NCBI RefSeq assembly: GCF_003426815.1
Contig: NZ_QKYK01000027.1
Span: forward strand, 1 to 64,000
Direction of reading: 5' to 3'
Source of the DNA: Desertimonas flava
Lineage (GTDB): Bacteria; Actinomycetota; Acidimicrobiia; Acidimicrobiales; Ilumatobacteraceae
Length of the DNA: 64,000 nt
The notes under the pieces were generated by a model. The model saw only the letters and a program-made list of their open reading frames with translations, was not told where the DNA came from and did no database searches. Positions 27,527 to 57,523 of the stretch are shown in pieces (position 1 is the first letter of the stretch; every line of letters starts with the position of its first letter). Both the position numbers and the translations under genes were made by a program.

Positions 27527-27568
27527 GATTCTCAGCCGTCTCCGGTCGCGATGCCGCGACGCCGGGAG
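27527..27568. repeat. Decayed copy of the 54.8-kb palindrome
   Basis: 27527-27551 matches 24 of 25 bases of the left arm of the large palindrome at 54845-54869 (both begin GATTCTCAG and end CGTCTCCGGTCGCGA). The expected right arm is only partly recognisable (CCGCGACGCCGGGAG follows). It lies between tesB and the XRE regulator gene. Confidence 0.6.
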
Positions 27569-27597
27569 CACACGAACTGCGTGACCCGCGGCGGCGC

Positions 27598-40434: not shown

Positions 40435-40465
40435 GTAACAGATGGTGCCAGGCACCATCTGTTAC
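40435..40465. repeat. Dispersed palindrome, GTAACAGATGGTG family (copy 1)
   Basis: 15-bp perfect arms (GTAACAGATGGTGCC, 40435-40449, and its complement 40451-40465) around a single A. It recurs almost identically at 57491-57521 (29 of 31 bases). Here it sits inside an operon, between the glycosyltransferase stop and the methyltransferase start, so it could attenuate transcription or protect mRNA ends as well as being a mobile-type repeat. Confidence 0.8.
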
Positions 40466-53022: not shown

Positions 53023-53129
53023 GTCCGGTTCAGGGTCGTCCCTGGGCAGATCGCGAGGCCAGGCGATCGGTGCCGGTCGGTGCCGGAAACCGTGTCGCTC
53101 ATCGGCGTGCCCCGGTGCACACTGGAGTC

Positions 53130-54833
53130 ATGCCGACCGCCGCACCCCTCGTCGCCCGCGCCGTCACGGCGAAGCGCGGGGCGGCGACGATCCTCGACGC
53201 CGTCGATCTCACCGTGGCCATGGGCGATGTCGTCGGTCTCGTCGGACCCAACGGCGTGGGCAAGTCCACGCTGCTCGCCGTGCTCGGCGGCGACCTCCAG
53301 CCCGAGTCCGGACGTGTCGAGCGGACGCCGCCGACGGCGACCGTCGGCCTGCTGCCCCAGGAGCCGCATCGCGACGACGGCGAACTCGTCGTCGCCTTCG
53401 TGTCCCGCCGCACAGGTGTCGCAGCCGCCACCGTCGAGCTCGAGGCGGCCACCGCGGCGCTGGCCGCTGGAGCACCAGGCTCCGACACGCGCTACGACGA
53501 GGCCCTGCAGCGTTGGCTGTCGCTCGGCGCGGCCGATCTCGACGCACGCATCGGCGAGGTGTGGGCCGAGCTCGGGTTGAGTCCCGACGTGCTCGCCCAG
53601 CCGACCGCCACCTTGTCCGGCGGCGAGGCGGCGCGCGTCGGGCTGGCGGCGCTGCTCCTGTCTCGTTTCGACGCCTACCTCCTCGACGAGCCGACCAACG
53701 ACCTCGACCTCGACGGGCTCGCCCGCCTCGAGCGGTGGGTCACCGAGCAGCCGGCCGGCATCGTCCTCGTCAGCCACGACCGCACGTTCCTGTCCCGCAC
53801 GGTCAACGCCGTGGTGGAGATCGACGAGTTCACGCACCGGGCCACCCGCTACGACGGCGGCTGGGACGCCTACCTCGAGGAACGGGCGACCGCCGCTCGG
53901 CATGCCTGGGAACGGTTCGAGGACTACGACGCCAAGCGGACCGGGCTCGCCGAGCGGGCCCAGCGAGAGCGCGAGTGGGCGTCACAGGGTCTGTCCAAGG
54001 TGCGCAACTCCGACGAGAAGGACAAGAACATCCGCGCCTTCCGCAAGAACCAGACCGAGCAGCTGGCCGGGCGGGCGGCGCGGACGGACCGGGCGATCGA
54101 CCGGCTCGAGGTGGTCGACAAGCCCCGCACGCCCTGGGAGCTGCGCTTCGTGATCGGCACCGCCGGTCGCAGTGGCGACGTGGTGAGCCGTCTCAACGGT
54201 GCGGTCGTCCGCCGCGGTGCGAGCCCCGCCGGGACCGGCGCCGGTGCCGGTGCCGCCGCGTCGCCGTTCGTCCTGGGACCGATCGACCTGATCATCGCGG
54301 CCGGCGAGCGCGTCGCCATCCTCGGGGCCAACGGCAGCGGGAAGTCGACGTTGCTCGACCTCATCCTCGGTCGCATCGAGCCCGACGAGGGCTCGTCACA
54401 GCTCGGTGCCAGCATCGTGGTCGGCGAGGTGGAGCAGGTCCGCCGCCAGCTCACCGGCTCGTCGACGCTGCTGCGCGCGTTCCAGGACGAGACCGGCTAC
54501 GACGCGTCCGACGCCCGCACGCTGCTGGCGAAGTTCGGGCTCGTCGCCGACCACGTGCTGCGACCCACCGAATCGCTGTCGCCGGGGGAGCGGACGCGGG
54601 CCTCGCTCGCGTTGCTCATGGCCCGCCAGGTCAACCTGCTCGTGCTCGACGAGCCGACGAACCACCTCGACCTGCCGGCGATCGACAGCCTCGAGCAGGC
54701 GCTCGACACGTTCCCCGGCACGGTGCTGCTGGTCACCCACGACCGGTCGCTGCTCGAACACGTCCGTCTCACCCGCACGATCCGCCTCGACGCCGGCCGC
54801 GTCGTCAGCGACACGATCGCCCAGCCCGTATGA
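53130..54833 (+). CDS. ABC-F family ATPase (ribosome-associated)
   Basis: 567-residue protein with two ABC domains and no membrane segment. First Walker A GPNGVGKST, signature LSGGEAAR and Walker B AYLLDEPTN; second Walker A GANGSGKST, signature LSPGERTR and Walker B LLVLDEPTN. The linker between domains (about 245-330) is long and charged, the P-site tRNA-interaction motif of ABC-F proteins. They relieve ribosome stalling or protect from ribosome-targeting antibiotics. The stop overlaps the next frame's ATG by four bases. Confidence 0.9.
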   Translation: MPTAAPLVARAVTAKRGAATILDAVDLTVAMGDVVGLVGPNGVGKSTLLAVLGGDLQPESGRVERTPPTATVGLLPQEPHRDDGELVVAFVSRRTGVAAATVELEAATAALAAGAPGSDTRYDEALQRWLSLGAADLDARIGEVWAELGLSPDVLAQPTATLSGGEAARVGLAALLLSRFDAYLLDEPTNDLDLDGLARLERWVTEQPAGIVLVSHDRTFLSRTVNAVVEIDEFTHRATRYDGGWDAYLEERATAARHAWERFEDYDAKRTGLAERAQREREWASQGLSKVRNSDEKDKNIRAFRKNQTEQLAGRAARTDRAIDRLEVVDKPRTPWELRFVIGTAGRSGDVVSRLNGAVVRRGASPAGTGAGAGAAASPFVLGPIDLIIAAGERVAILGANGSGKSTLLDLILGRIEPDEGSSQLGASIVVGEVEQVRRQLTGSSTLLRAFQDETGYDASDARTLLAKFGLVADHVLRPTESLSPGERTRASLALLMARQVNLLVLDEPTNHLDLPAIDSLEQALDTFPGTVLLVTHDRSLLEHVRLTRTIRLDAGRVVSDTIAQPV

Positions 54834-55549
54834 CCCGATCACGCGATTCTCAGGCGTCTCCGGTCGCGAAATCGCGACCGGAGACGCCTGAGAATCGTGT
54901 TTCTGGCCGGACGCGGCCGGCGGGCGAGTTGTCGGGCTGGGTGGCCGGTGTGCTCGCCTCGATCCGCGACGACGCGCCCGCCGACGTGCCGTGCGACGGG
55001 TGCACGGCGTGCTGCCGCTCGTCGCAGTTCATCCACGTCACGCCGGACGACGCCGACGCCGTGGCCCACATCCCGTCGGCCCTCCTCTTCCCGGCTCCGG
55101 GGCTGCCGGCCGGTCACTACGTCCTCGGCTACGACGAGCGCGGCCACTGCCCGATGCTGGTCGACGACCGGTGCTCCATCTACGAGCACCGACCGAACAC
55201 GTGCCGCACGTACGACTGCCGGGTCTTCGCCGCCACGGGCATCGACGTCACCGACGAGAAGCCGCTGGTCGCCGCGCGCGTGCGGGAGTGGCGCTTCGAC
55301 GAGTCGGGTCCGGCCGCCCGCCGGACCGCCTCGGCGCTCGAGGCCGCCGCCCGCTACCTCGCCGAGCGGAGCGGCGACCTGCCGGCGGGGACGGTGCCGG
55401 TCGATCCGACACAGCGAGCGGTCCTCGCCATCGACGTCCACGACATGTTCGTCACGTCGCCGGAGCCGAGCCCCGAGACCGTTGCCGTGGCCATCACGCA
55501 GCGGCGCGCCGGGGGCTACGGTCGCGACGATGCCGACGCTGGAGCTTGA
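54830..55549 (+). CDS. YkgJ-family Cys-cluster protein
   Basis: Up to 239 residues, with the Zn/Fe-binding cluster CDGCTACC (Cys55, Cys58, Cys61, Cys62 counted from ATG 54830) and a second set in HCPMLVDDRCSIYEHRPN, TCRTYDCR, as in YkgJ/UPF0153 proteins. Function is unknown; metal chelation is assumed. The ATG at 54830 overlaps the ABC-F stop (ATGA), but then codons 6-22 lie inside a perfect 26-bp palindrome. A start after the palindrome, for example a GTG near WVAGVLAS, is therefore equally possible. The 3' end overlaps the next gene by 20 bases. Confidence 0.75.
   Translation: MTRSRDSQASPVAKSRPETPENRVSGRTRPAGELSGWVAGVLASIRDDAPADVPCDGCTACCRSSQFIHVTPDDADAVAHIPSALLFPAPGLPAGHYVLGYDERGHCPMLVDDRCSIYEHRPNTCRTYDCRVFAATGIDVTDEKPLVAARVREWRFDESGPAARRTASALEAAARYLAERSGDLPAGTVPVDPTQRAVLAIDVHDMFVTSPEPSPETVAVAITQRRAGGYGRDDADAGA
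54844..54897. repeat. Perfect 26-bp-arm palindrome
   Basis: Left arm 54844-54869 (CGATTCTCAGGCGTCTCCGG...) and right arm 54872-54897 are perfectly complementary around AA; with G-T pairing the stem extends to 54841-54900. It starts ten bases after the ABC-F stop. The left arm recurs as a decayed copy at 27527-27551. It is either a terminator/dispersed repeat or, if the ATG at 54830 is used, part of the coding sequence of the next protein. Confidence 0.85.
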
Positions 55550-56358: not shown

Positions 56359-57486
56359 ATGGAACCGATGGGACCGCCCCGTGTCGCCCACGTCCTCCAC
56401 GTCGACCTCGACCAGTTCCTGGCCGCCGTCGAGGTGCTGCGACGGCCCGAGTTGGCCGGGCGCCCGGTGGTCGTCGGAGGCGACGGGAACCCGAAGCGCC
56501 CTCGCCAGGTCGTCGCCACCGCGTCGTACGAGGCTCGGGCGTTCGGCATCCACTCCGGCATGCCGTTGATGGCGGCGTACCGCAAGTGCCCCGACGCCGT
56601 GTTCCTGCCCTCCGACCATCCCGCGTACGACGCGGCGTCGGCCGTCGTGATGGCCACCCTGCGATCGTTGCGCGGCGACGACGGCGAGCCGGTGGTGGTG
56701 GAGGTGTGGGGTTGGGACGAGGCGTTCGTCGGCGTCGTCACCGACGAACCCGAGGTGTTCGCCCACCGCCTGCGCGCCGAGGTGCTGGCAGCGACGCGGC
56801 TGTCGTGCGCCGTCGGCATCGGCGAGACCAGGCTGCAGGCGAAGACCGCCACCGGCATCGCCAAGCAGGAGCGTCTGTCGGCCCCCGCAGGTCAGGCTTC
56901 CGGCGTGGCCCGGTTGACGAGGGCGCAATGGATCCCGTCCATGGGCGACAAGCCGGTCACGGCGATCTGGGGGATCGGCGACCGCACCGCCGCCCGGCTC
57001 GCCGAGGCCGGGATCCACACCGTCGTCGACCTGGCCCGCGCCGACCACGAGGACCTCGCCCGCCGGTTCGGGCCCCGGATCGGACCGTCGCTGCGGGTGC
57101 TCGGTCTCGGCGGCGACTCCTCGCCGCTCGTCGACGAGCCGTGGGTACCGAAGTCACGCAGCAAGGAGGTGACCTACACCCGCGACGTCGTCGGCGCGGC
57201 GGCCATCGAGGCGGAGGTCGACCGGCTCGCCCACGAGGTGACGGCCGAGGTGACCGCCGGTGGGTTCGTCGCCACTCACGTGGCCGTCAAGCTCCGCACG
57301 CCGACGTTCTTCACGCGCTCGAGGATCAGCAAGCTGCCCGCCCCGACCACCGACGCCGACGAGATCGCCGCGACCGCCCGCCGTGTTCTCGGCCGCTTCG
57401 ACGAGATTCTCCGTCCCGACGAGCCCGATCACCCTCGCGCCGTCCGCCTCATCGGCGTCCGCCTGATGCTCCAACCGGCGAGCTGA
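56359..57486 (+). CDS. dinB: DNA polymerase IV-like (Y-family)
   Basis: 375-residue Y-family translesion polymerase. Catalytic carboxylates are in HVLHVDLDQFLAAVE and in the palm loop WGWDEAFVG, which reads WDE instead of the usual SxDE. YEARAFGIHSGMP and VGIGETRLQAKTATGIAK are conserved. IWGIGDRTAARLAEAGIHTV is the helix-hairpin-helix region. It lacks an obvious C-terminal beta-clamp motif, as some mycobacterial DinB paralogues do. Starts at ATG 56359 or, by the leaderless spacing from CAGGAT (56355-56360), at ATG 56368. Confidence 0.9.
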   Translation: MEPMGPPRVAHVLHVDLDQFLAAVEVLRRPELAGRPVVVGGDGNPKRPRQVVATASYEARAFGIHSGMPLMAAYRKCPDAVFLPSDHPAYDAASAVVMATLRSLRGDDGEPVVVEVWGWDEAFVGVVTDEPEVFAHRLRAEVLAATRLSCAVGIGETRLQAKTATGIAKQERLSAPAGQASGVARLTRAQWIPSMGDKPVTAIWGIGDRTAARLAEAGIHTVVDLARADHEDLARRFGPRIGPSLRVLGLGGDSSPLVDEPWVPKSRSKEVTYTRDVVGAAAIEAEVDRLAHEVTAEVTAGGFVATHVAVKLRTPTFFTRSRISKLPAPTTDADEIAATARRVLGRFDEILRPDEPDHPRAVRLIGVRLMLQPAS

Positions 57487-57523
57487 CCGGTAACAGATGG
57501 TGTCTGGCACCATCTGTTACCGG
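57487..57523. repeat. Dispersed palindrome, GTAACAGATGGTG family (copy 2)
   Basis: CCGGTAACAGATGGTG (57487-57502) pairs perfectly with 57508-57523 around TCTGG. It shares 29 of 31 bases with the palindrome at 40435-40465. It begins directly after the dinB stop and probably also serves as its terminator. An ATG inside it opens a spurious N-terminal extension of the lhr frame. Confidence 0.82.

Follow-up and report, generated by a model that had tools for sequence, protein, structure and literature searches.

A dispersed palindromic repeat family in Desertimonas flava, placed mainly behind stop codons and, in one certain and one probable case, within genes

Introduction

What becomes of a perfect palindrome that directly follows the stop codon of one gene and that would be translated if the next gene started at the ATG overlapping this stop? 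The question is raised by positions 54844-54897 of a stretch of 64,000 nt from the genome of Desertimonas flava (contig NZ_QKYK01000027.1, positions 1 to 64,000 of the forward strand; hereafter the window), where the gene of an ABC-F type ATPase is followed by a palindrome and then by the body of a YkgJ-like gene. A first-pass annotation, made from the letters of the sequence, had suggested that the palindrome might be an in-frame insertion comparable to the RPE elements. The best descriptions of in-frame palindromes come from Rickettsia and from the REPs of several other species.

Results

The palindrome and its surroundings

The inverted repeat is exact, as the first-pass annotation had claimed. 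At 54844-54897, C followed by GATTCTCAGGCGTCTCCGGTCGCG leads to an AAAT centre and from there into the exact complement, and since the outer A and T of this centre pair as well, the arms measure 26 bp and the centre 2 nt. The segment 54830-54915 folds with -63.3 kcal/mol (z -10), a stability reached by 0 of 200 shuffles, and a scan for terminator-like patterns returned three overlapping matches on the stem as compared with 0.0 in shuffles. The hairpin begins 14 nt past the ATG at 54830. No Rfam family matched anywhere in the window at the gathering threshold, and the best matches of the ABC-F protein, among those listed, are actinobacterial. The features that matter for the argument are the following.

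27527..27578, + strand: second family member in the window, an asymmetric A/B hairpin (covariance match C20:27513-27582, 66.9 bits)
53070..54833, + strand: upstream gene of an ABC-F type ATPase (ABC_tran match); its TGA directly precedes the A-end flank
54830..54832, + strand: candidate ATG start overlapping the ABC-F stop (ATGA); nearest in-frame start before AGELSGW
54830..55549, + strand: YkgJ-like CxxCxxCC ORF, 239 aa from the ATG (PF03692, E 4.7e-8), with the palindrome segment DSQASPVAKSRPETPENR
54834..54844, + strand: left A-end flank CCCGATCACGC (family consensus CCCSAAAACCY), from flank conservation over the A arms
54844..54869, + strand: left arm of the perfect palindrome, A type, from arm comparison
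54872..54897, - strand: right arm of the perfect palindrome, A type, from arm comparison
54897..54907, - strand: right A-end flank (reverse complement GCCAGAAACAC), A-end consensus-like and sharing the last arm base
54929..54943, + strand: alternative in-frame starts TTG 54929 and GTG 54941, downstream of the palindrome; the composition-based caller chose 54941

A family with two kinds of arm

The genome search for the arm sequence that had been recommended along with the in-frame idea brought up many further copies. At up to three mismatches, GATTCTCAGGCGTCTCCGGTCGCG has 25 matches in the own genome, a 6.2-Mb draft assembly of 73 contigs, two of which are the arms of the window palindrome itself, and the reversed control has 0. 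The usual copy is asymmetric and joins an A arm (CCCSAAAACCY-GATTCTCAGSCGTC...) to a different B arm (GATTCCTGTRCTGC...). Over the 44 A arms at the loci fetched, GATTCTCAGSCGTCTCYGGTYGCG has CCCSAAAACCY ahead of it, with about 6.7 bits in the flank from -11 to -1 and no more than 0.28 bits at any position between -24 and -12, and the flank of the B arm GATTCCTGTRCTGCTSYGGTYGCG holds at most 0.38 bits per position (25 arms). A covariance model built from 23 copies located the family at no fewer than 29 distinct places of the own genome (E<1e-6), with both strands of one place counted as one; this figure is a lower bound because only 150 of the 2911 first-look candidates were scored. On C42 and C43, family copies occur in pairs.

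The arm copy at 27527 in the window had been taken for the decayed half of such a palindrome. The sequence is present there as described, but the notion of decay fails, as the place is an asymmetric A/B member in its own right (66.9 bits). It lies between two minus-strand genes, and it is the B arm, not the A arm, that stands at the 3' end of its neighbour.

With a symmetric model, three A/A palindromes stand out at 76-92 bits, the next match reaching 42.6 bits, namely the window copy, C45:15274-15347 and C72:23627-23700. Two of them are situated inside open reading frames and the third behind a stop codon. The resemblance of the right flank to the A-end consensus is weaker in the C72 copy.

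A copy inside an acyl-CoA synthetase gene

The A/A palindrome of C72 lies inside an open gene, an ORF of 789 aa in which it encodes NSQPPVVAKMQPQTAENR. The protein is an acyl-CoA synthetase (ATP-grasp_5, CoA_binding_2, Succ_CoA_lig and Ligase_CoA_2), and the insertion site is an inter-domain linker. None of the 23 fused relatives with a readable linker (56-79% identity) contains the peptide; for five relatives at the level of the order, the loci compared match the two halves of the protein separately. The linker comprises 30 residues in the C72 protein and 19-33 residues (median 21) in the relatives, and as this excess of 9 residues falls short of the 18 inserted, either part of the linker was replaced or the length of the linker varies. 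The C72 peptide and the window peptide DSQASPVAKSRPETPENR read the palindrome in the same frame and are similar in sequence.

Where translation of the YkgJ-like gene starts

The frame is preserved in the window as well: the ATG at 54830, situated at the ABC-F stop, opens a frame that crosses the palindrome and continues into the YkgJ-like ORF, just as the first-pass annotation had read it, and the product would be MTRSR-DSQASPVAKSRPETPENR-VSGRTRP-AGELSGW.... The next ATG, GTG or TTG upstream of 54830 in this frame lies 966 nt before GTG 54941, within the ABC-F gene.

The alternative with the greatest weight is that the window palindrome is extragenic like most copies, serving the ABC-F gene as a hairpin at its 3' end, be it as terminator, attenuator or stabiliser, and that translation starts at TTG 54929 or GTG 54941. 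We regard this as possible, albeit not as the reading that we favour. It agrees with the fact that gene calls extend across none of the 25 A/B copies examined and not across the third A/A copy, with the terminator-like pattern of the stem reported above, and with the composition-based caller, which preferred GTG 54941. This GTG is 44 nt away, as compared with a median of 75 nt (11-491) to the next called gene start on the B side of the copies. Published REPs at the N-termini of ORFs, too, are described as often extragenic with downstream starts (PMC3733652).

The N-termini of homologues, whose comparison had likewise been recommended, argue for a position of the window copy after the start codon and ahead of the gene body. 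At E<=1e-3, 7 of 40 relatives have a homologue; six genomes contribute the seven matches of the alignment, G010 with two, and the weak matches of G020 and G009 were left out. In all seven, the motif AGxxxxW is conserved at 6-13 residues from the starts chosen; three of these starts (L208, L210, L214) are bounded by an in-frame stop just upstream, and the other four were picked among several candidates. Both downstream starts of the extragenic alternative cut into this motif or follow it, although TTG 54929 would cost only its AGE, and 54830 is the nearest start that keeps the motif whole. Further points against the alternative are the open frame from the ATG across the palindrome, the tolerance of an in-frame insertion in the C72 copy and the lack, by eye, of a Shine-Dalgarno-like sequence before TTG 54929, which is equally lacking before ATG 54830. 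In its favour, three homologues (L207, L209, L212) also offer an ATG just past the motif.

As read from ATG 54830, 30 residues precede the motif. Without the 54 nt of the arms there would be 12, and without 72 nt (the arms and most of both flanks) there would be 6, as in two homologues, the N-terminus then reading MSRTRP-AGELSGW; the 72-nt boundary was picked to preserve the frame, which a symmetric unit of 74 nt would break. Since the ABC-F and YkgJ-like genes lie on separate contigs in the three relatives compared (G010, G017, G020), synteny is uninformative on the ancestral start, and no empty site was found at the DNA level. From the alignment, the likeliest interpretation appears to be an insertion that preserves the frame and separates the start of the YkgJ-like gene from its body; translation would begin at ATG 54830, although the very stable, terminator-like hairpin 14 nt past this ATG weighs against it, the downstream TTG and GTG being possible starts. 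If the in-frame reading is true, the peptide segments MTRSRDSQASPVAK... and MTRSRDSQASPVAKSRPETPENR are predicted. Start codons that are called automatically next to palindromes of this kind are unreliable.

Placement at gene ends

The context of 27 copies was tabulated with a composition-based gene caller, the intragenic C72 and C42:28751 copies being left out. In 20 of the 27, the A side faces the 3' end of a called gene, the distance ranging from -2 to 52 nt (median 4); one tabulated copy has no A-side gene call. In nine copies, the A end itself makes the TGA stop, the T being the one before GATTC, and the genes concerned end in exact PKT three times out of nine and otherwise similarly, e.g. 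in PQT or TKS. Where the neighbouring genes run in one direction, the A arm is at the 3' end 14 times and the B arm three times (p 0.013), the 27.5-kb copy of the window being one of the three exceptions. Leaving out the two A/A copies, because their orientation means nothing, gives 12 against 3 (p ~0.035, own arithmetic). The remaining contexts are convergent (6) or divergent (3).

Twelve A-side C-termini (of 16 prepared) were compared with those of six relatives, the comparison being local to the 30 loci returned. Seven of the 12 genes aligned, giving 30 alignments, and in 28 of these the protein ends are at most 6 residues apart, which suggests that genes capped by the element mostly end where they natively would, or close by. 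The exceptions are +9 (L144, where six of seven homologues are longer by 5-9 residues) and -14 (the ABC-F gene of the window, from which five homologue C-termini differ by -14 to +6 residues).

At C6:102792-103923 (L021, L022), a DUF559-like gene stands between two inverted A/B hairpins, and both outer neighbour genes end in a PKT-stop supplied by the hairpins. We considered a hairpin-ended gene cassette for this place and rejected it, two ordinary insertions behind neighbouring genes being sufficient.

Occurrence in relatives

In 60 relatives, a coarser scan gave no strong match, the best reaching 25.7 bits (E 0.002). The weak matches are in G002, G010 and G024 (23-26 bits, E 0.002-0.008), and that of G010, the one inspected, does not resemble a member. 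A scan of 394 further genomes from the class, a set overlapping with the 60 relatives, gave no match at E<=1e-4; the same scan recovers 12 copies in the own genome, and as only 12 candidates were scored per genome, weak families could be missed. To judge by these coarser scans of relatives and class, the family appears to be present in this genome only.

Regulatory elements or artefacts

It could be argued that the hairpins are regulatory or terminator elements under selection rather than mobile repeats. The orientation bias described above would fit this idea, as would the frequent TTTT on the strand leaving the A end (AGGTTTTGGG) and the two-sided changes at stem pairs, which number 23 cells against a shuffle mean of 13.2 and are as high in 1 of 500 shuffles. 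However, the 23 copies, chosen by similarity, share 21 invariant columns, more than a terminator needs, and stem columns 30-32 are mispaired in 11-14 of the 23. With no strong match in the relatives searched, one copy inside a gene and others paired on C42 and C43, we consider this explanation improbable. That the A/A palindrome is an amplification or assembly artefact (an inverted chimera) is very improbable, for although perfect inverted repeats are typical chimera products and the assembly is a draft of 73 contigs, the left and right flanks differ and yet are each A-end-like, both other A/A copies (C45, C72) have arms that differ from each other within the copy, and two genes remain open with their frame intact.

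Discussion

Proposed explanation

From our point of view, and with a probability of about 0.6, the hairpins constitute a REP/MITE-like family that is located mainly behind stop codons and whose A/A insertions, where they met the right frame, survive in the C72 and window genes. The family is dispersed through the genome and adjoins gene ends; as a mobile, non-autonomous palindromic repeat, it would have spread mostly to sites just behind stop codons. In one frame, the A-end consensus reads CCC AAA ACC TGA, that is PKT-stop, so that the element could cap a gene while adding hardly any residues, leaving a hairpin at the 3' end of the mRNA that may influence the transcript. Another frame of the A/A form is stop-free, with (RKP)DSQxxxVAKxxPxTxEN as its product; when the consensus is translated, the frame of both in-gene copies is free of stops (RKPDSQ...TPENQVFG), and the third frame is open too. 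Insertions in the stop-free frame would be tolerated in genes, namely in the linker of the C72 protein and at the N-terminus of the YkgJ-like protein, between the stop-coupled ATG and AGELSGW, and the two A/A copies in reading frames would each contribute about 18 amino acids to the product.

The in-frame idea of the first-pass annotation gains support from C72, which provides a second and firmer case, and it is likely to hold for the window; membership of the RPEs does not follow, the resemblance being one of behaviour in genes. A wider generalisation, which we offer as a rather doubtful one, would be that of a two-ended palindrome with frames of different fates, where entry by the A end either stops at once and caps the gene or is stop-free. 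The family would then generate protein inserts in Actinomycetota as RPEs do elsewhere, and A/A homodimers would be the in-gene form, two of three A/A copies (one of them probably) but none of 25 A/B copies being found in genes. Being small, with a gene-end and an in-gene mode and with 23 relatives available at one site, the family makes a testable case of repeat-added peptides.

Comparison with known systems

RPEs are described as palindromic repeats that run in frame through unrelated genes and add a conserved peptide (PMC10969869; PMC3733652), which is the behaviour met here in one certain (C72) and one probable (window) case. Unlike RPEs, most copies of the present family are extragenic, neither the third A/A copy nor any of the 25 A/B ones being located in frame; Rickettsia moreover belongs to a different phylum, and the units measure 54-74 nt here as compared with about 150 nt in the published description of RPEs (PMC10969869). 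The likeness is drawn from behaviour and published descriptions.

For REPs, the source consulted depicts dispersed short hairpins adjoining the 3' ends of genes, with GTAG ends that often supply a TAG stop, and some copies in genes, more than half of which are dimers or groups encoding 20-30 aa (PMC3733652). The general picture is shared by the present repeat, a short palindrome in many dispersed copies that are mostly extragenic near gene 3' ends. Two super-families, GTAG and CGTC, have been distinguished (Di Nocera et al., 2013; PMC3733652). The GTAG tag is absent here, the A end being CCCSAAAACCYGATTC and the B end GATTC, and no RAYT gene stands beside the window palindrome. The CGTC super-family is characterised in that source by its CGTC tag, a stem starting with AT, a loop of 4-5 nt and a CCA tail (PMC3733652); in the present family, most A arms carry CGTC or a variant of it ahead of the inner stem, and loops of 4 nt are usual, but the stems mostly start with TC or TG and a CCA tail was not seen by eye. 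Two distinct arms, A and B, further set the family apart from the REP super-families.

Bacterial MITEs, for which in-frame intragenic cases are on record (PMC10969869), are similar in being non-autonomous repeats with inverted ends. Inverted arms are present here, the flank on the B side carries at most the 0.38 bits per position given above, and a transposase with these ends was not found. An attC-like site of an integron was dropped on layout alone, the copies being single and dispersed. Among the open-licence papers searched, none lists such a family for Acidimicrobiia or Actinobacteria. We regard the family as new and its kind as already known, namely as REP-like and working like RPEs inside genes.

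RAYT genes, other palindromes and a composite element

The genome contains two genes of RAYT-type Y1 transposases (PF01797, ~300 aa), L204 (C72:106577) and L205 (C8:188), each of which adjoins a palindrome of its own (GAGATAGTGCC and GTAACAGATGGTGCC). A RAYT-borne REP was rejected as the identity of the window repeat (R1): both PF01797 genes carry palindromes of the GAGATAGTGCC and GTAACAGATGGTGCC types, and R1 is unmatched in either locus of 2-3 kb.

A different palindrome, GTAACAGATGGTGYC..GGCACCATCTGTTAC, is found in the window at 57487-57523 and 40435-40465 and matches that of the C8 RAYT gene (L205). The copy at 57487-57523 directly follows an ORF of 375 aa ending at 57486, and because the ATG of a 1563-aa ORF lies within it, the listed start of that ORF may be spurious.

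A composite element of about 545 bp is present at L023 1501-2046 (C10:46942-47487), with both arms also in at least five similar places. Its arms surround a core of about 500 bp that has CGGGCGCTCYTGTCG as its inverted ends and, by eye, a palindrome of about 39 bp at its centre. Among the 20 core matches listed, six have both arms, in either orientation, and others have one arm beside them; some core copies are armless. As the core is met between two arms in either orientation, the hairpin loop may itself be a target. The converse, that the hairpins are deletion remnants of the core, is disfavoured by this arrangement, by the armless cores and by the absence, by eye, of any core remnant in the short hairpins. 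An IS appears to be inserted in the core at L036 (C20:64.1-65.6 kb, shortly after the window ends) and at L024 (the start of C11); its end begins at about CAGGCTGTTGCGGTTTG (by eye), and its transposase is presumably IS1182-like.
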